Shown here: positions 28,194-50,168 of the stretch, in pieces
Numbering within the stretch: position 1 is the stretch's first letter
Layout: each line of letters begins with the position of its first letter
Assembly: GCF_002139875.1 (NCBI RefSeq)
Contig: NZ_CP018793.1
Coordinates: 62,001-126,000, forward strand
Direction of reading: 5' to 3'
DNA: 64,000 bases
Source of the DNA: Campylobacter vicugnae
GTDB lineage: Bacteria; Campylobacterota; Campylobacteria; Campylobacterales; Campylobacteraceae
The notes under the pieces: generated by a model
The model's database searches: none
What the model was told of the DNA's origin: nothing
The model's input: only the letters and a program-made list of their open reading frames with translations
Position numbers and translations under genes: made by a program

Positions 28194-29327
28194 ATGATTT
28201 TGAAGAAAATATTGATAGTTGTTCCTGATTTAAGTATAGTTGGCGGCAGGGAGCGTGTTGTAGCGAATTTGAGTAATGAGCTTGTTAAAAATTATAAAAT
28301 TTATATAACTAGTATATTTAATGCTAATAAAAATATAGTATTTGATTATAGTAAAAATATAGAATTAATAAAATTATCTGATATTAAAGAAATCACCTTA
28401 CCAAATGTAAAAAACCAATTTTTTAAAATTTTACGTGAATTAGCTAGACCGTTAGTTAGATTTGCAAATAGAATAATTATAAAAATAATGAGCAGGCGTT
28501 TTATAAAATTAGCAAAAAAAATTGAGCCAGATTTTATTATCGATAATAGTGATAGTTTTATCAATGGTAAATTTGTTTTAAAAAATAGTGCTGTAATTAA
28601 ACTTATTCATGGCAAATTTGATATTTATAAGAATTTTAATTTAGATGGTTTGCAAAATTTTGTATTGCTTTCTTCTCAAGAGCTTGATAGCTATAAAACA
28701 AAATACCCAAATTCTAATTTTTATATCATTCCAAATTTCCTCCCAAATATCTCAAATTTAAATACTAATTACTCACAAAAAGTAGTTGTAAGCGTAGGTA
28801 GGCTATCAAAAGAAAAAGGCTTTCTTCGTTTAATAGATATTTGGAAATTAATTCAAGATAGCAAAGAATTCAAAGATTGGAAACTACATATTGTAGGAGA
28901 TGGTGAGTTAAAAGAGAAGATAGAAAATAAGATAAAAGATCTAAATTTAACTAACTCTATAATATTAAAACCATTTACTAAAGATGTAGAGAGTGAGTAT
29001 CTAAGTGCTAGTATATATGCTATGACAAGCCATTTTGAAGGGTTTGGAATGGTTCTTATAGAGGCTCAGTCTTATGCATTACCAACCATATCATTTGATA
29101 TTGCAACTGGTCCAAGAGATATAATAGAAGATGAAAAAAGTGGATATCTGATAGAAGATAACAATCTTAATGAATACGCAACTAAACTAAAAACTCTGAT
29201 GAGTGATGAAAATCTAAGAGCTAAAATGGGAGCAAAAAGCAAAGAGATAGTTAAAAGTAAATTTAGTAAAGATGTTGTAATGAAACAGTGGATGGAGTTG
29301 TTTGAAAGGTTAAAAAATGCAAAATAG
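28194..29327 (+). CDS. family 4 glycosyltransferase (GT4 copy 1)
   Basis: GT-B-fold retaining glycosyltransferase of a surface glycan. The frame opens at 28146, but ATG 28194 follows AAGGGG by a few bases and starts the Rossmann strand KKILIVVPDLSIVGGRERVVANLS, so it is chosen. The product has 377 residues, with nucleotide-sugar motif VVVSVGRLSKEKGFLRLIDIW and the EX7E motif EGFGMVLIE near the C-terminus. The second half is nearly identical to GT4 copy 2, while the first half differs. The last bases overlap the next GT2 gene. Confidence 0.88.
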   Translation: MILKKILIVVPDLSIVGGRERVVANLSNELVKNYKIYITSIFNANKNIVFDYSKNIELIKLSDIKEITLPNVKNQFFKILRELARPLVRFANRIIIKIMSRRFIKLAKKIEPDFIIDNSDSFINGKFVLKNSAVIKLIHGKFDIYKNFNLDGLQNFVLLSSQELDSYKTKYPNSNFYIIPNFLPNISNLNTNYSQKVVVSVGRLSKEKGFLRLIDIWKLIQDSKEFKDWKLHIVGDGELKEKIENKIKDLNLTNSIILKPFTKDVESEYLSASIYAMTSHFEGFGMVLIEAQSYALPTISFDIATGPRDIIEDEKSGYLIEDNNLNEYATKLKTLMSDENLRAKMGAKSKEIVKSKFSKDVVMKQWMELFERLKNAK

Positions 29328-29367
29328 CCCAAAAGTATCAATCATAATTCCAGTATATAATGTAGAA
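28680..29367 (+). repeat. long repeat A, copy 1 (GT4 C-terminal half and GT2 start)
   Basis: About 690 bases nearly identical to 30855-31548. It covers the donor-binding half of the GT4 gene, the GT4/GT2 overlap and the first codons of the following GT2 gene. Offset is 2175 rising to 2181 because copy 2 has two more codons. Confidence 0.9.
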
Positions 29368-30369
29368 AAATATTTAAGAGAGTGTTTAGATTCAGTAGTT
29401 AATCAAACTCTAAAAGATATAACAATAATCTGTGTAAATGATGGTTCAACTGATTCTAGTTTAGAAATTTTAAAAGAGTATGCTAAAAACGATAGTAGAA
29501 TTCATATCGTAGATAAGATAAATGGCGGACTTGGTGCAGCTAGAAATTCAGGTATAAAATATCTAATAGATAATAATATAAATCCTAAATATATCTATTT
29601 TGCAGATTCAGATGATTGGCTAGATATTCAAGCTTTAGAAAAACTATATAATAAATCACAAGAGTCAAATTCGGATATATGCATAATGAGTTTATTGCTA
29701 TACATAGAGAAAGATAAAAGAATAGAATCAAGTGATTATTTTAAAACCGATTGTTATAAGATTAGAAAAAATAATGTATGTGATTATAGTGAAATTAAAA
29801 ATGCATTATTTGGACGCTTTGGAGCATTTTTAAAATTTTATTCATATGAATTTTTAATAAATTCCCTATGGGAAAATGAAGAATTCTATCCACAAAATTT
29901 ACTTTTTGAAGATGTATATCCGCATATTAAATCCTTAATACTAGCTAAAAGAATCGCATTTTTAGATGAGGCTTTGTATTATTACCGTATTAGAGAAGGC
30001 TCCATAATGACGTCTAGTGCAAAAAGCAAAAGAACTTTTGATATTTTTAAATCAATTTATATGGTGGAAAATTTTTTAAAAAATAAGCAACTGCTAAATG
30101 AATTAAAAGATAATTTTATGGAATTCATATGCGAATTAATTCAAGGGCATTATTTTTGTTGTCCATTGGAATATAGGGATGAATTTGCTACAGAAGCCAA
30201 AAAATATTTATCTAAATTTGATGATTCTTTTTATTCGCTAAATAAAATAAAAAAACAGCATTTAAAGTTAATGTTAAATTTAAATAATCCATATGATAAA
30301 AAATTAATTAAAATAAAAAATAAAATTATATATAGATTTAATAGGTTAAAGTGGAGTTTGGGAATATGA
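29317..30369 (+). CDS. family 2 glycosyltransferase (GT2 copy 1)
   Basis: Inverting GT-A-fold glycosyltransferase. The 350-residue protein starts with the standard VSIIIPVYNVEKYLRECLDSVVNQTLKD strand-helix, then VNDGSTDSS, IHIVDKINGGLGAARNSG and the metal motif FADSDDWLD at about 103-111. Acceptor-side residues follow, with LFEDVYPHIK and YYRIREGSI. It starts inside the 3' end of GT4 copy 1 and its TGA overlaps the ATG of GT4 copy 2. Its two ends are nearly identical to GT2 copy 3, while the middle differs. Confidence 0.9.
   Translation: MQNSPKVSIIIPVYNVEKYLRECLDSVVNQTLKDITIICVNDGSTDSSLEILKEYAKNDSRIHIVDKINGGLGAARNSGIKYLIDNNINPKYIYFADSDDWLDIQALEKLYNKSQESNSDICIMSLLLYIEKDKRIESSDYFKTDCYKIRKNNVCDYSEIKNALFGRFGAFLKFYSYEFLINSLWENEEFYPQNLLFEDVYPHIKSLILAKRIAFLDEALYYYRIREGSIMTSSAKSKRTFDIFKSIYMVENFLKNKQLLNELKDNFMEFICELIQGHYFCCPLEYRDEFATEAKKYLSKFDDSFYSLNKIKKQHLKLMLNLNNPYDKKLIKIKNKIIYRFNRLKWSLGI
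29332..29689 (+). repeat. repeat B, copy 1 (GT2 N-terminal domain)
   Basis: About 358 bases nearly identical to 32437-32794. The repeats resume at about 29854-30010 versus 32965-33120, and at 30245-30362 versus 33350-33467, so GT2 copies 1 and 3 share start, part of the middle and end. Confidence 0.9.
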
Positions 30370-31508
30370 AAATTTTGCTAATTATAGATGATGCAACTAT
30401 TGTTGGCGGAGTTGAAAGAGTTGTATCGAATTTGAGTAATACTTTTTTGGAAAATAAACATGAAATTTGCGTTATTAGTTTATATGGATATGATAAAAAA
30501 GATCGAAAACTCCCATTTTTATATGAAGAACAGATTAAGCTATATTTTTTAAAGCATATACATTCTAAAGAGCTTCGGTCTTTGCAAGTATCTAATATAT
30601 TTTTAAAACTTTTGAGAGAGATTTTGCGACCAGCTGTTCAAACTATAAATTTTTTTATAAAAAGAAGCAAATTATCGGAATTTAAAAATATTATTTCAAA
30701 TTTTAAACCAGATTTTATTCTTGATAATTCATATTCTTCTATATTTGATAATTATTTGTCTAATCAAAAAGCTATAAAAGTAATTCATATTGGTTTTGAT
30801 ATTTATAAAAATGTAGAGTTAAAACATGAAAACATAATATTACTCTCATCTAAAGAGCTTGATAGCTATAAAACAAAATACCCAAATTCTAATTTTTATA
30901 TTATTCCAAATTTTCTCCCAAATATCTCAAATTTAAATACCAATTATTCTCAAAAATGTGTAGTATCAATAGGTCGTATGGATAGGAGTAATCAAAAAGG
31001 CTTTCTTCGCTTAATAGATATTTGGAAGTTAATTCAAGATAGCAGTGAGTTTAAAGATTGGAAACTACATATCGTAGGAGATGGCGAGCTAAAAGAGAAG
31101 ATAGAAAATAAGATAAAAGATCTAAATTTAACTAACTCTATAATATTAAAACCATTTACTAAAGATGTAGAGAGCGAGTATCTAAGTGCTAGTATATATG
31201 CTATGACAAGCCACTTTGAAGGACTCCCTATGGTGCTTATAGAAGCTCAGTCTTATGCCTTGCCAACCATAGCCTTTGATATCGCCACAGGCCCAAGCGA
31301 TATAATAGAAGATGATAAAAGTGGATATCTGATAGAAGATAATAACCTTAATGAATACGCAACTAAACTAAAAACTCTAATGAGTGATGAAAATCTAAGA
31401 GCTAAAATGGGAGCAAAAAGCAAAGAGATAGTTAAAAGTAAATTTAGCAAAGATGTTGTAATGAAACAGTGGATGGAGTTGTTTGAAAGGTTAAAAAATG
31501 CAAAATAG
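30366..31508 (+). CDS. family 4 glycosyltransferase (GT4 copy 2)
   Basis: Second GT4 enzyme of the array, 380 residues from ATG 30366, which overlaps the previous TGA (ATGA). The frame also opens at GTG 30351. It begins MKILLIIDDATIVGGVERVVSNLSN and has CVVSIGRMDRSNQKGFLRLIDIW and the EX7E motif EGLPMVLIE. The donor-binding half is nearly identical to copy 1, apart from a two-codon insertion and EGLPM for EGFGM. The acceptor-binding half is divergent, which suggests a changed acceptor with the same donor sugar. Confidence 0.88.
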   Translation: MKILLIIDDATIVGGVERVVSNLSNTFLENKHEICVISLYGYDKKDRKLPFLYEEQIKLYFLKHIHSKELRSLQVSNIFLKLLREILRPAVQTINFFIKRSKLSEFKNIISNFKPDFILDNSYSSIFDNYLSNQKAIKVIHIGFDIYKNVELKHENIILLSSKELDSYKTKYPNSNFYIIPNFLPNISNLNTNYSQKCVVSIGRMDRSNQKGFLRLIDIWKLIQDSSEFKDWKLHIVGDGELKEKIENKIKDLNLTNSIILKPFTKDVESEYLSASIYAMTSHFEGLPMVLIEAQSYALPTIAFDIATGPSDIIEDDKSGYLIEDNNLNEYATKLKTLMSDENLRAKMGAKSKEIVKSKFSKDVVMKQWMELFERLKNAK

Positions 31509-31548
31509 CCCAAAAGTATCAATCATAATTCCAGTATATAATGTAGAA
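30855..31548 (+). repeat. long repeat A, copy 2
   Basis: Second copy of the 690-base repeat; see 28680-29367. Direct orientation, so recombination between the copies would delete or duplicate about 2.18 kb carrying one GT2 and one GT4 gene. Confidence 0.9.
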
Positions 31549-32415
31549 AGATATATATCTGAGTGTTTGGATTCTTGTATTAATCAAACCCTGCAAGATA
31601 TAGAGATTATAATCGTAGATGATTGTGGAAGCGATAAAAGTATAGATATAGTAAAAGAGTATGCCAAAAAAGATAGTAGAATAAAGATTATTTATAATAA
31701 ACAAAATCAAGGGCCATTCGTTAGTAGGAATAATGCTGCTATACAAGCTAGTGGAGAATACTTTTTATGTTTGGACTCGGATGATTTTTTAGATTTAAAA
31801 GCTTGTGAGATAGCATATAATGCTACTAAAGATGGGTATTATGATATTGTTAAATTTAATGTTTATAATTATGATGGAAATACTTGCTGGCATATGGAGT
31901 GGGTAACTTTAAATAATTATAGTTTTGAGTCCTTAGAAGAATATGCTAATTATATTTATAGACAAAAAGATTATCCTAGATGGAATTTGGCTTTTATGAT
32001 GGTTAAAAGAGATATCTATTTAAAAGCTTTTGAAATTTTAAATTTAAAAGATAGAATTACAATGGCAGAGGATGCTTTGATGAGTTTTGTACTTTGTAAT
32101 TTATCTAATAAATTTTGTTATATTTGTGATATTTTGTATTACTATCGTCAAAATGAGAATTCAACAACTAAAAGTAGCTGTAATAATGTAATTGAAAAAA
32201 ATATACAAGACCTTATATTTGTAATTAATAAAATAAAAGAAATTTCAAAAAAGTATAAATTTAATACTAAAATTACTAAATTATATATAATTTATTTGCG
32301 ATATTGCGAATACAATATAAGGAAACAGCATAAAAAAATCAATAAGATTATATTTAAAATATATAATAAATATTTTAAATATAATAGAAGTTTAAGAGTT
32401 AAATTTGGGATTTAA
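31498..32415 (+). CDS. family 2 glycosyltransferase (GT2 copy 2)
   Basis: GT-A-fold enzyme of 305 residues. It starts VSIIIPVYNVERYISECLDS, with IIVDDCGSDKS and the metal motif CLDSDDFLDLKA at about 92-103, then AEDALMSFVLCNL and YYYRQNENS. Beyond the first 15 or so codons it differs from copies 1 and 3. Its last 20 codons (KIYNKYFKYNRSLRVKFGI) have a decayed relative at 33891-33950. It starts within GT4 copy 2. Confidence 0.88.
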   Translation: MQNSPKVSIIIPVYNVERYISECLDSCINQTLQDIEIIIVDDCGSDKSIDIVKEYAKKDSRIKIIYNKQNQGPFVSRNNAAIQASGEYFLCLDSDDFLDLKACEIAYNATKDGYYDIVKFNVYNYDGNTCWHMEWVTLNNYSFESLEEYANYIYRQKDYPRWNLAFMMVKRDIYLKAFEILNLKDRITMAEDALMSFVLCNLSNKFCYICDILYYYRQNENSTTKSSCNNVIEKNIQDLIFVINKIKEISKKYKFNTKITKLYIIYLRYCEYNIRKQHKKINKIIFKIYNKYFKYNRSLRVKFGI

Positions 32416-32424
32416 AGGCATAAA

Positions 32425-33519
32425 GTGGGCAAGATTAAAGTATCAATAATAATTCCAGTATATAATGTAGAAAAATATTTAAGAGAGTGTTTAGATTCAG
32501 TAATTAATCAAACTCTAAAAGATATAGTAATAATCTGCATAAATGATGGTTCAACTGATTCTAGTTTAGAAATTTTAAAAGAGTATGCTAAAAACGATAG
32601 TAGAATTCATATCGTAGATAAGATAAATGGCGGACTTGGTGCAGCTAGAAATTCAGGTATAAAATATCTAATAGATAATAATATAAATCCTAAATATATC
32701 TATTTTGCAGATTCAGATGATTGGCTAGATATTCAAGCTTTAGAAAAACTATATAATAAATCACAAGAGTCAAATTCAGATATATGTATAATGGAGATTG
32801 CGCGATATATTGAAGCAACTAATAAAATAGACAAAGAAGATCCTTGGTATACAAATAAGTGTTATAAAATTAGAAAAAATGATGTATGTAGTTTTGATGA
32901 AATTAAATCAGTTTTATTTTCTAGTTGTTGTGTGGCATATTGTCATTTGTATTCATATCAATTCTTAATAAATTCCCTATGGGAAAATGAAGAATTTTAT
33001 CCACAAAATTTACTTTTTGAAGATGTATATCCGCATATTAAATCCTTAATACTAGCTAAAAGAATCACATTTTTAGATGAGTCTTTGTATTATTACCGTA
33101 TTAGAGAAGGCTCTATAATAGCATCTAGCGCAAAAAGTAAAAGAATTTTTGATATTTTTAAAACTTTTGATTTAATAGAAAATTTCTTAATAGAGCAGAA
33201 TTTAATGAATGAATTAAAAATTGATTTTTATAATTATGTATGTTGTAGTATAAATTCGAAGTTATCTTTGATCGATTTTAAAAAGGAGTTTGCTAAAGAA
33301 GCTAAAAAGTATTTATCTAAATTTAATGACTCTTTTTTGTCATCTAAAAAATTAAAAAAACAGCATTTAAAGTTAATGTTAAATTTAAATAATCCATATG
33401 ATAAAAAATTAATTAAAATAAAAAATAAAATTATATATAGATTTAATAGGTTAAAGTGGAGTTTGGGAGTTGGGGGGGGGGTGCTAAGAGAGTTATATGC
33501 AATTTTAGTAATTCTTTAA
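32425..33519 (+). CDS. family 2 glycosyltransferase (GT2 copy 3), C-terminus set by a G10 tract
   Basis: GT-A-fold enzyme of 364 residues starting at GTG 32425 with AAAGG upstream. N-terminal and C-terminal segments match GT2 copy 1, with FADSDDWLD, LFEDVYPHIK and YYRIREGSI present; the middle is unique. In copy 1 the protein ends at SLGI, but here the frame runs into ten G residues at 33472-33481 and adds a 16-residue out-of-frame tail. A G9 register would stop almost at once, and G11 would fuse it to the GT4 fragment behind. The catalytic domain is intact in all three registers. Confidence 0.85.
   Translation: MGKIKVSIIIPVYNVEKYLRECLDSVINQTLKDIVIICINDGSTDSSLEILKEYAKNDSRIHIVDKINGGLGAARNSGIKYLIDNNINPKYIYFADSDDWLDIQALEKLYNKSQESNSDICIMEIARYIEATNKIDKEDPWYTNKCYKIRKNDVCSFDEIKSVLFSSCCVAYCHLYSYQFLINSLWENEEFYPQNLLFEDVYPHIKSLILAKRITFLDESLYYYRIREGSIIASSAKSKRIFDIFKTFDLIENFLIEQNLMNELKIDFYNYVCCSINSKLSLIDFKKEFAKEAKKYLSKFNDSFLSSKKLKKQHLKLMLNLNNPYDKKLIKIKNKIIYRFNRLKWSLGVGGGVLRELYAILVIL
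32437..32794 (+). repeat. repeat B, copy 2
   Basis: Second copy of the GT2 N-terminal repeat; see 29332-29689. Confidence 0.9.
33472..33481 (+). repeat. G10 tract, candidate phase-variable site
   Basis: Ten G residues at the junction between GT2 copy 3 and a GT4 fragment. They encode the Gly-Gly-Gly of the VGGGAKRV segment in the GT4 frame. Confidence 0.9.
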
Positions 33520-46905: not shown

Positions 46906-47200
46906 TTAAAAATTCGCCCTTATATGCTCTTTGTAGCTATTTATATACTCATCTGTCTTTGGATTTTTAATTACATCATTACAAATAAAGCTTGGCAATG
47001 CCTTCATACCGTAAAATTCCATCGCCTTATGCATAGCAAAGGTTGCGCCATCATATCCACACCTTCAAAAAACTCATTTTTATCCTTAAATGCCGTAATT
47101 GGCGCATTCCAAGTGGTGCTTATCATATATTTTTTATTTGTAGCTAGTCCGCCTGTACCAAAATCTTTATCATCATCTAAAATTAAACTTTCATCTTTGC
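46906..47200 (-). pseudogene. truncated and frameshifted MdaB-like NAD(P)H quinone reductase
   Basis: On the minus strand, DFGTGGLATNKKYMISTTWNAPITAFKDKNEFFEGV reads in one frame and GYDGATFAMHKAMEFYGMKALPSFICNDVIKNPKTDEYINSYKEHI in another. Together they are the C-terminal half of the MdaB/YwrO-like flavodoxin-fold reductase. One missing base near 47056-47062 (GTGGAT for GTGGGAT) explains the shift. The N-terminal flavin-binding half is absent: only a few codons precede the matching part. No start codon with a ribosome binding site is left, so it is a remnant. Confidence 0.75.
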
Positions 47201-47306
47201 TCTTTTAATTTTGTGATTTTAATTATATATTTTAAAATATTTTCTAAAACAAGCATTAAATTTCAAGTGCGAGTTAAGAGATTTGGCAAATTTTAGAATT
47301 AGCCAT

Positions 47307-47375
47307 AAATTTAAGCTTTTGCTTTAAGTTTTTCAAAGTCAAACTCATCAGGGTGGTTTATAGCGTAGTTAAATT
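47307..47375. repeat. 69-bp direct repeat, left copy (3' end of symporter gene)
   Basis: Perfect copy of 48779-48847, which is the last 21 codons of the dicarboxylate symporter gene plus flanking bases. The left copy starts in DNA otherwise unrelated and ends within the stop codon of the EF-hand gene. Confidence 0.97.
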
Positions 47376-48303
47376 ATACTTTGAAATCTATCTTTGAATT
47401 TTCTATATTTGCTTCTATGTTTTTTATTACAGAGCTTAAATCCTCTTTTAGTGTATTTTCATCCATTAGAAGTCCTGCTTTTGCTAAAATTGCTTTTTGC
47501 TCAGCATTTAGTGAGCTTACTCCGCCCATAAATTGTTGTAAAAGAGCTTTAGCTAGTAAGTCTTCGCCGACATTTATTTGTTCTATTTTATCCCCTATCA
47601 TAGCTGTTATAATGTCTGTTACATCTTGTTCGTGTTCGTTTTTATCCATTATCTCACCATAAGCTATTTTACCATCACTATTTTTATCATTTTGTATTGT
47701 TTTATTTAGCTCCTTTTCTATGCTATCACTTGCGTATTTTCCAGCAGCATAAGATGAAGAATGCTGATTTTTAAAACTATCTCCAAGTTTCATATAACTC
47801 TCTGTGCTAGTAGAAGTATCAGTCATAGAATAAAGATTAAAAACTCCGTGCGAAGTAAAACCAGAATTTGTATTTGCTAACTCATCTTGACTTAGGTATC
47901 CATCGCCATTAGCATCGCTACTAGCATATCCACGCTTGTAAGCTATATCGCCAAACCACCCAGCCACAAAGCTTTCAGCCTTACCACTAAGTATTTGCGA
48001 ACCATCGCTTTTAGTAAAGAAATCTTGTTTTCCAAATACTCTTTGGAGTTTTTCTAAATTTTCATCGCTAAGTCCAATTTTTATAAATTCCCCACTTGTT
48101 TCATCTTTGAAATAGACTTGATTTTTAAAAGTGCTTTCATTAAAATTAACCTTAATACTAGTGTTAGTAAGGCTATCTATGCTCTTATCAAGCTCTGCTA
48201 ATTCAGTCTTAGAACGATTTTGCACATCTTGACTAAGTACTCCATACACGAAATTATTAGAAATGGTCTCATAGCCATAATATTTCATATTTGTAAGATT
48301 CAT
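47374..48303 (-). CDS. EF-hand (calcium-binding) protein, function unknown
   Basis: A 309-residue protein starting at ATG 48303, with AAAAGG seven bases upstream; the frame opens further up at 48348. It has two canonical EF-hand loops, DANGDGYLSQDE at about 142-153 and DKNSDGKIAYGE at about 217-228. The rest is Ser/Asn/Asp-rich and helical (LAKALLQQFMGGVSSLNAEQKAILAKAGLL). No signal peptide is seen. It follows a small secreted protein gene 17 bases away. Its stop codon lies at the edge of a 69-bp repeat, so the gene appears to have been moved here. Confidence 0.75.
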   Translation of the reverse strand: MNLTNMKYYGYETISNNFVYGVLSQDVQNRSKTELAELDKSIDSLTNTSIKVNFNESTFKNQVYFKDETSGEFIKIGLSDENLEKLQRVFGKQDFFTKSDGSQILSGKAESFVAGWFGDIAYKRGYASSDANGDGYLSQDELANTNSGFTSHGVFNLYSMTDTSTSTESYMKLGDSFKNQHSSSYAAGKYASDSIEKELNKTIQNDKNSDGKIAYGEIMDKNEHEQDVTDIITAMIGDKIEQINVGEDLLAKALLQQFMGGVSSLNAEQKAILAKAGLLMDENTLKEDLSSVIKNIEANIENSKIDFKV

Positions 48304-48320
48304 TGATAGCCTTTTATTGT

Positions 48321-48533
48321 TTAACGAATGCAACCTATCCACGCACAAAAGGCATTTGAATAGATACTTTGATGATTTGTTTGTGGATTGGTATTTGCGT
48401 TTTGATTATTTGAACTTGCAGTGTGAATATCTAATTGATAGCGTATATTACCATATCTATCTACATAATAACCAGCAAAAGCAGAACTAGCCAAAGTGGC
48501 GACTAAAACTGATGAAAAAAGTAATTTTTTCAT
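48321..48533 (-). CDS. small secreted protein, function unknown
   Basis: A 70-residue protein with a clear signal peptide (MKKLLFSSVLVATLASSAFA), leaving a mature peptide of about 50 residues: GYYVDRYGNIRYQLDIHTASS, an Asn/Gln-rich middle and two cysteines in FCAWIGCIR that could form a disulfide. The family is not recognised. It has its own -10 box at 48568-48573 and precedes the EF-hand gene, so both are likely one operon inside the repeat-bounded segment. Confidence 0.7.
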   Translation of the reverse strand: MKKLLFSSVLVATLASSAFAGYYVDRYGNIRYQLDIHTASSNNQNANTNPQTNHQSIYSNAFCAWIGCIR

Positions 48534-48567
48534 ATTTTCTTCTTTCTTTATTGTTAAGCTTGTTTTT

Positions 48568-48573
48568 ATTATA
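48568..48573 (-). promoter_or_regulatory. -10 box of the secreted/EF-hand pair
   Basis: On the minus strand TATAAT in TTTTTTGTTATAATAAAAAC, about 35 bases ahead of the small secreted protein gene. The rest of 48534-48778 is AT-rich and shows no other gene. Confidence 0.5.
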
Positions 48574-48778
48574 ACAAAAAATCAAAATTATTAAATGATT
48601 TTTGTAGTATTTGTTACAATTTTTTAATCAAGTGTTACTATTTTACACAAAAATTATCTTAAATTAATAAATTTAGCTATTTTATATTAGAAATTTTTCT
48701 TATAAATTGCTTTAATATAGATTATAGTGTTACATTTGCTATGTGCTTAAGAGTTTAATATATAAAATCATTGGCTAG

Positions 48779-48847
48779 AAATTTAAGCTTTTGCTTTAAG
48801 TTTTTCAAAGTCAAACTCATCAGGGTGGTTTATAGCGTAGTTAAATT
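48779..48847. repeat. 69-bp direct repeat, right copy (native symporter 3' end)
   Basis: Native position of the repeated sequence, encoding the symporter C-terminus NYAINHPDEFDFEKLKAKA and its stop codon. Identical to 47307-47375. Confidence 0.97.
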
Positions 48848-50168
48848 TTTGCCTATCGATTTTTTTATCCCAAATTCCTACGATTAGACAAGCCACTGCG
48901 TTGCCACATAAATTCCCCACCGCACGCATCTCGCTCATAAATTTATCCACTCCAAGTAGCACCGTTACAGCCACCACAGGTATAACATCATGCATAGAGC
49001 CAAGCGTCCCAGCAAGCACTACAAAGCCTGAGCCAGTTACTCCTACGGCACCCTTGCTTGTAACCATCAAAATTAGTAAAATACTAAGCAAATGCGAAAA
49101 ACTAAGCTCTATATCAAAAGCTTGAGCTAAAAATATAACACAAGCTGAGAGATAAATATTTGTACAATCTAGGTTAAAAGAGTAGCCAAAAGGGGTGATT
49201 ACACCGACGCAACCTTTATGAATTCCAGCACTTTCAAGCTTTTTCATAAGTGGGGCTAAGGCAACTTCGCTTGAGCTAGTAGCAAAGACAACTAGCACCT
49301 CTTTAGCAATAAACCGCATAAATTTAAATATATTTACCTTAACAGCGTAGCAAATCACACCAAGCACCACAAAAATAAAAACCAAACACGACACTAGCAT
49401 AGTCCCAAGCAGACTTAGCATACCTATCAAACTCTCAATGCCAAATTTGCCAATGAGATACGCCATCGCACAATACGCCGCTAAGGGGCTTAGCCACATA
49501 AAGATACTAAGAGCTTTTAACACCCAGTTTTGAGCCTTTTCAATAGGATTTATGAAAAAATCTTTGATTTTCTTTGGTGAAAAGCTTAACACAATTGCTA
49601 AAAACAAAGCCATGAAAAGCACTTGAAGTGTGTTTGCTTTGATAAATGGGGTGATAACGATACTTAGGGCTAAAAGAGTATTTTTAAGCATACCTATCAT
49701 AAATCCAAATCCGCTAAGCGTGTTTAAGTCATCATAAGGTAAAAGCGGAGCTTTTGGCACTGCGTTTGCTAATATCGACCAGATCGAGCCTACATCTTTA
49801 GAAGCTCCAGAGAATTTCTCAACACTACTAGTATCAAAGGAGTTAGCATCTAGATGCATTCCCGCTCCAGGTGCTAAGAGCAATGAGCCAAAAATGCCCA
49901 TAGCTAAGGCTATCGTGCTAACTACTTCAAAGTAGATAAAGCCCTTTAAGCCTATGCTACCAAGGTCTTTTAGACTATCTAAGCCTACAATACCTGAAAT
50001 AATGGTAAGAAAGATAATGGGTCCTACCATCCACTTTAAAATCATTATAAAATAGTCAATTCCAAATTTACTATCAATTCCAATTTGCGGAAAAGTATAA
50101 CCTACAAAAATACCAAGCACTATTGCTAAAACAACCCAAAATGCGAGATTTTTTAATACTCCAAGCAT
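48783..50168 (-). CDS. dicarboxylate/amino acid:cation symporter (DAACS family)
   Basis: Sodium- or proton-coupled uptake of C4-dicarboxylates or acidic amino acids. The 461-residue product has about eight membrane helices and two re-entrant loops: the serine-rich ATSSSEVALAPLMKKLESAG near residue 290 and TPFGYSFNLDCTNIYLS near 325, followed by VTSKGAVGVTGSGFVVLAGTL near 375. These are the substrate-binding signatures of GltP/DctA relatives. The specific substrate is not decided. Its 3' end is duplicated at 47307-47375. It is divergent from bioF. Confidence 0.92.
   Translation of the reverse strand: MLGVLKNLAFWVVLAIVLGIFVGYTFPQIGIDSKFGIDYFIMILKWMVGPIIFLTIISGIVGLDSLKDLGSIGLKGFIYFEVVSTIALAMGIFGSLLLAPGAGMHLDANSFDTSSVEKFSGASKDVGSIWSILANAVPKAPLLPYDDLNTLSGFGFMIGMLKNTLLALSIVITPFIKANTLQVLFMALFLAIVLSFSPKKIKDFFINPIEKAQNWVLKALSIFMWLSPLAAYCAMAYLIGKFGIESLIGMLSLLGTMLVSCLVFIFVVLGVICYAVKVNIFKFMRFIAKEVLVVFATSSSEVALAPLMKKLESAGIHKGCVGVITPFGYSFNLDCTNIYLSACVIFLAQAFDIELSFSHLLSILLILMVTSKGAVGVTGSGFVVLAGTLGSMHDVIPVVAVTVLLGVDKFMSEMRAVGNLCGNAVACLIVGIWDKKIDRQKFNYAINHPDEFDFEKLKAKA

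Follow-up and report, generated by a model that had tools for sequence, protein, structure and literature searches.

Gene arrangement around the symporter 3' end

The window, meaning the whole 64,000-nucleotide stretch of Campylobacter vicugnae DNA that was analysed, contains a gene for an SDF-family (DctA-like) dicarboxylate symporter of 461 aa on the minus strand (48783..50168), which was matched by PF00375 (E=1.9e-78) and by the NCBIfam model DctA (E=8e-120, below cut-off). The 3' end of this gene is present twice as an exact direct repeat (69/69 bp) at 47307-47375 and 48779-48847, with a start spacing of 1472 bp; if extended, the repeat reaches 78 bp at 96%. By chance, about 6e-30 such exact 69-mer pairs would be expected in a 64-kb sequence of the window's composition. 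On the minus strand, the repeat starts with AATTTAAC inside the symporter gene and comprises the last 20 codons, the stop codon and a few bases beyond. The first-pass annotation had described this exact repeat around a two-gene module and had assigned it to the last 21 codons of the symporter gene; the repeat, its spacing and its origin from the 3' end were confirmed, whereas the number of codons was corrected to 20. The symporter gene is intact.

The copy that constitutes the symporter's own 3' end is the proximal copy (P; 48779..48847, minus strand), and it is identical in G008, the genome of a sister species in the same genus. It is followed on the same strand by a spacer (48534..48778), a gene for a small secreted-type peptide of 70 aa with a signal-type N terminus (48321..48533), and a gene for an EF-hand protein of 309 aa (47374..48303; ATG at 48303). 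The stop codon of the EF-hand gene is fused to the distal copy of the repeat (D; 47307..47375, minus strand) and overlaps its first bases. The peptide/EF-hand pair is single copy in its own genome. Directly beyond D, on the far side of the variable interval described below, lies a disrupted gene of the flavodoxin-2 family (NAD(P)H oxidoreductase-like; 46906..47208, minus strand), which contains frame shifts and has stops in all frames. The gene is intact in relatives, and PF02525 matched an intact flavodoxin-2 relative.

The spacer is conserved in G008 and includes an AT-rich, promoter-like stretch with the TATAAT-type sequence TTTTTTGTTATAATA 5' of the peptide gene. Because TTTTTTGTTATAATA resembles the extended -10 element usual in this group of bacteria, this stretch may act as a promoter, and the pair probably forms a separate transcription unit. 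A generic sigma-70 scan gave no clear excess, and a scan 3' of D found no intrinsic terminator. A hairpin-like palindrome was observed in the distal flank of G008. Several other long exact direct repeats (238, 116, 101, 85, and 69 bp), about 2.2-3.1 kb apart, were found at 28909-33400 of the window; they belong to a different locus from the symporter/EF-hand repeat and are probably recently duplicated genes.

The absence of an integrase or transposase, which the first-pass annotation had pointed out, held in the wider search. PF00589 gave five matches in the genome, all on C1 and all more than 600 kb off by contig coordinates, and no transposase was recognised among the neighbouring genes; an integron-like or transposon origin was rejected on the basis of these gene searches. 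A phage or plasmid origin was also rejected, as tblastn with the EF-hand protein gave no match among 50,697 records of phages and 72,556 of plasmids. A search of IMG/VR gave no confirmed match of the EF-hand protein.

The EF-hand protein and the secreted peptide

The single EF-hand protein sequence of the window was matched by the Pfam EF-hand model at E = 3e-4, which is below cut-off, and a profile of the family searched against PDB matched EF-hand pairs (E=1.7e-5), best on calcineurin B and calmodulin-type chains. A canonical pair of 12-residue Ca-binding loops is present at about residues 130-141 (DANGDGYLSQDE) and 206-217 (DKNSDGKIAYGE). The AlphaFold model (mean pLDDT 74) showed the EF-hand pair well, with the variable middle and the C-terminal part uncertain. 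Structural alignments of residues 115-222 with EF-hand pairs were weak (VIA-align, best Z 3.8), and Foldseek with the model gave no match at E <= 0.001. The two EF-hand loops are like those of calmodulin-like proteins; unlike these proteins, the window protein has hypervariable blocks, and the rest of its sequence belongs to no recognised family. In many family members, the C terminus has the conserved form (L/V/I)D(F/I/V)(K/R)(V/A).

The alignments revealed a conserved framework with three hypervariable blocks. Between the window and G008 proteins, the framework (alignment columns 41-140 and 261-320) is near-identical, whereas columns 1-40 and 141-260 are very different, and in the variable blocks the nonsynonymous changes are far above the synonymous ones. 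G008 also carries tandem paralogues that are codon-identical over columns 21-140 (120/120) and differ in the variable blocks; tandem peptide/EF-hand units adjoin an ATPase gene of the rnhB region in this genome (L029:5398-7693). A 101-bp EF-hand remnant in G007, another related genome, is of the window allele type at 91% nucleotide identity, whereas the G008 allele is far less alike there. As judged from these alignments, the pattern is that of a family that recombines, is subject to diversifying selection, and has alleles that appear to cross species borders.

The peptide has the conserved core NANTNPQTxHQSIYSNAFCAWxGC, and homologues were found in G008, C. troglodytis, and G176/G221. The form NNxNANxxPQTxxQxIYSNxF is common to the peptides of the window, C. 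troglodytis, and G176/G221, with scores reached in 0/2000 shuffles. In C. troglodytis and G176/G221, the peptides have a propeptide ending in LSxxEMxEVxGG or similar, that is, a double-glycine leader, although the curated leader models (TIGR01847 and TIGR04149) gave weak matches to the homologous peptides, below cut-off. In the window and G008 peptides the propeptide is absent, and a Sec-type signal runs straight into the core. A search of the window's own genome for the C39 peptidase (PF03412) gave no match, as expected for the Sec route. The GG leaders of the distant homologues are a point of likeness to class II bacteriocins and GG-RiPP precursors, whereas the window peptide has no GG, its genome has no C39 transporter, and it is paired with an EF-hand protein. 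By its appearance, the window peptide would be related to double-glycine peptides and would have lost the double glycine; it was not classified as a bacteriocin.

The first-pass annotation had proposed a search for the same two genes at other loci, and relatives are indeed present elsewhere. The EF-hand gene of this family was found in 68 of the 397 sampled Campylobacterota genomes, in 17 genera and often with several genes per genome; the same family occurs at other loci in G008. A small secretory ORF with a Sec-type signal lies immediately upstream of about 26 of 50 distinct EF-hand genes (the script gave 29, and about three were discounted as spurious), leaving about half of the EF-hand genes with no peptide by the filter used. 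A similar filter applied to 157 other genes gave such an ORF for five, two of which, at Sulfurimonas and Helicobacteraceae loci of the family, are probably unrecognised family members. Eleven EF-hand family matches were observed in G031, a genome of another genus of the Campylobacter family (L049, L051, and L052), several with their own small secreted peptide and some head-to-head. A 63-bp exact repeat flanks peptide/EF-hand units in a Helicobacteraceae bin (L056:5666 and 10754), where it probably represents tandem unit copies, and a 77-bp repeat was seen around another family member in L069, that copy lying at the contig end.

Searches of Pfam, NCBIfam, PHROGs, and PADLOC found no curated family for the gene pair beyond weak EF-hand matches, and the PADLOC models of anti-phage defence matched neither window protein. 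A description of the pair was not found in the literature. The peptide/EF-hand pair belongs to a widespread and fast-changing family that is apparently undescribed.

Age and origin of the repeat

One genome per species was compared, and among 15 congeneric genomes the pair was found at the same site in G008 only. Both junctions are common to the window and G008: the junction between the EF-hand gene and the symporter tail is identical (AAAGTATAATTTAAC), so that the end of the EF-hand gene meets AATTTAAC at the same base, and about 20 bases beyond the distal copy are also common. The identical junctions and the common sequence past the distal copy therefore point to one event, via descent or transfer of the whole unit. 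An assembly artefact was ruled out by the same arrangement in this independent genome.

The P copies of the window and G008 and the D copy of the window are identical, whereas D of G008 differs at 4/69 positions. Two of these four differences (GAG; G of GAA) match the symporter genes of all four outgroup genomes (G001, G007, G011, and G015), and at these two sites both window copies and the symporter copy of G008 have the derived letter. From this comparison, the two letters are taken to be ancestral states. As D of G008 keeps them, the divergence of the distal copy from the symporter would have begun before the derived letters arose, and these would themselves be older than the split of the window species and G008. 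The duplication of the tail is likewise judged to predate this split, because G008 has both junctions with copies diverged at 4/69; this dating comes from one species pair and four substitutions. The distal copy of the window is best explained as having been overwritten later by the proximal copy, with gene conversion as the simplest account of the pattern. If the repeats of the window became identical through such conversion, their perfect identity is no sign of recent arrival. A history of old duplication followed by conversion is thus regarded as probable, with good confidence.

These comparisons bear on several proposals of the first-pass annotation. Recombination between the repeat copies is evident. 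The reading of perfect repeats as a mark of recent insertion was not supported, because G008 has both junctions with diverged copies. Divergence of both repeats in relatives, which had been named as evidence against a mobile cassette, was observed for the distal copy of G008 (4/69) and not for its symporter copy, which is identical, and most close relatives are without the module.

A cassette that entered the symporter 3' end recently, in the window lineage, by homologous recombination with its own copy of the gene end would be exactly excisable. The perfect 69 bp would fit such an entry, as would the absence of the module at the symporter in G001, G007 (with a remnant elsewhere), G011, and G015 and the occurrence of the same family at other G008 loci. 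However, both junctions are present in G008 with diverged repeats, and none of the other copies of the pair is flanked by gene-tail repeats, which makes this origin very unlikely. The idea of the repeat-bounded unit as itself mobile was not supported either, with a symporter tail in G001 lying beside unrelated genes.

If the unit in its entirety (symporter end, module, and tail) had passed between the window and G008 lineages, this could mimic shared descent of the arrangement in G008, and the junctions would not date the event. The symporters of the two genomes are about 95% alike vs about 89% for the neighbouring genes, and the module family shows trans-species alleles, both of which are in keeping with transfer. 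On the other hand, the distal copies differ at 4/69, and the module spacers and framework differ by about 4-7%, similar to the symporter; any transfer would therefore itself be old. Such a transfer is considered unlikely, and the old duplication with later conversion is retained as the preferred reading.

The interval between the symporter and flavodoxin genes differs among the related genomes. In G011 and G015, the order is symporter, a cupin-/carboxymuconolactone-type gene, a MerR regulator gene, a cyclophilin-like gene, an alcohol dehydrogenase (ADH) gene, and flavodoxin-2 (the genes of the interval were named partly by eye, with MerR, ADH, and flavodoxin confirmed), whereas the window and G008 have the pair plus the distal tail where these relatives have all the genes before flavodoxin. 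The G007 remnant mentioned above adjoins this gene block at its cupin end. As cargo of the interval, G008 carries a restriction-modification pair of type II, G015 a type IIG R-M enzyme together with Abi-type AAA (AbiL)/RloB-type genes, G011 a Fic gene (an ORF in G001 is near-identical to it), and G007 a methylase alongside a HerA-type ATPase. Because the cargo differs in each species, the interval behaves, as far as these sequences indicate, as a hotspot of plasticity with turnover of defence-type genes.

In G001, the symporter is 0.68 Mb from the ADH-flavodoxin genes. A 46-bp degenerate symporter tail was nevertheless found there between ADH and flavodoxin, with unrelated genes alongside. Its alignment score was 51, vs a maximum of 36 in 500 shuffles, and it was the best non-symporter match of 2726 windows, although it is 46 bp only and AT-rich. 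This relic is continuous with the homology that extends from the flavodoxin gene and matches the distal flank of the window. The same genome carries a ComEA-like helix-hairpin-helix gene twice (L024:6518-6853 and L030:3085-3420), once downstream of the symporter and once in front of the cupin block 0.68 Mb off; this doubling suggests a duplicative rearrangement at the symporter end.

Among the matches listed for 153 genomes of the family, an orphan fragment from the C terminus of the symporter was found in the window genome and G008 only. Within 1.5 kb downstream of about 27 other symporters, no repeat of the tail was found, except in two genomes with whole tandem symporters. These two, G003 and G013 of the same genus, have full symporters about 1.46 kb apart and raise the question of a truncated tandem duplication, in which the module replaced an ancestral second symporter except for its last 69 bp. 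Such an origin would explain a tail with ancestral states as well as the G001 relic. The G003 and G013 copies, however, belong to a more distant branch and occupy a different locus, not beside flavodoxin, and no further piece of a second symporter is present between the repeats of the window, so this origin is thought improbable, though it deserves some weight.

The attachment site of an integrative element or prophage can lie at the 3' end of a protein gene, as with icd in E. coli, and direct repeats that restore the gene end are typical of tyrosine-recombinase elements. The repeat-bounded unit resembles them in its duplicated and restored gene end and in the cargo between direct repeats. It might retain 1.4 kb of cargo from an element with its attachment site in the symporter 3' end whose integrase was lost, and the differing defence-type cargo of the interval in related species would agree with this. 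Unlike such elements, the unit has a cargo of two genes and no integrase within 600 kb, none was recognised among the ORFs listed for the corresponding stretches of four relatives, and the target is not reused at the approximately 27 other symporter loci apart from the two tandem cases. The unit was not classified as an integrative element because it is without a recombinase or repeated use of the target, and descent from one is held to be quite unlikely.

Possible history and role of the pair

In homology-facilitated illegitimate recombination, as outlined in PMC3240628, one end of an incoming linear DNA recombines homologously and the other is joined illegitimately. In naturally competent bacteria, this would give the gene end of the donor, the cargo, and the displaced gene end of the recipient; for the window, such an event is proposed from the final arrangement.

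In summary, the 69-bp repeat appears to be an old duplication of the symporter 3' end that now bounds the peptide/EF-hand pair inside a hotspot of variable content. The distal copy would have been homogenised with the proximal copy by gene conversion in the window lineage. The cargo may have come or been swapped through homology-driven, partly illegitimate recombination during natural transformation, without a dedicated recombinase, and recombination across the repeats could occasionally delete the pair. This combined statement on the repeat and its setting is considered somewhat favoured by the evidence.

The peptide may be a factor of competition or signalling that is exported via the Sec pathway. 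The EF-hand protein may be its cognate partner, responsible for immunity, sensing, or delivery, and the hypervariable blocks may determine the specificity. Immunity or sensing would be the most likely of these roles in this context because of the matched variability. A role of the pair in competition or recognition is proposed tentatively. Equally tentative is the broader view of a polymorphic system across the phylum Campylobacterota, in which a Sec-exported peptide (ancestrally with a double-glycine propeptide) is matched by a cognate EF-hand protein, the hypervariable blocks of the latter being diversified through recombination and selection; the two would serve competition or kin recognition between strains and be kept in exchangeable hotspots such as the repeat-bounded slot of the window.

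These results indicate that perfect repeats flanking a gene module can be misleading: in the present case, concerted evolution of an older duplication is the best reading of the identity. The pair that it surrounds is common in Campylobacter, Helicobacter, Sulfurimonas, and their relatives, although it has no curated family, and its conserved framework with hypervariable blocks has the look of strain-specific interaction systems. Whether the peptide acts on neighbours that do not have the matching EF-hand protein is a question that can now be tested.
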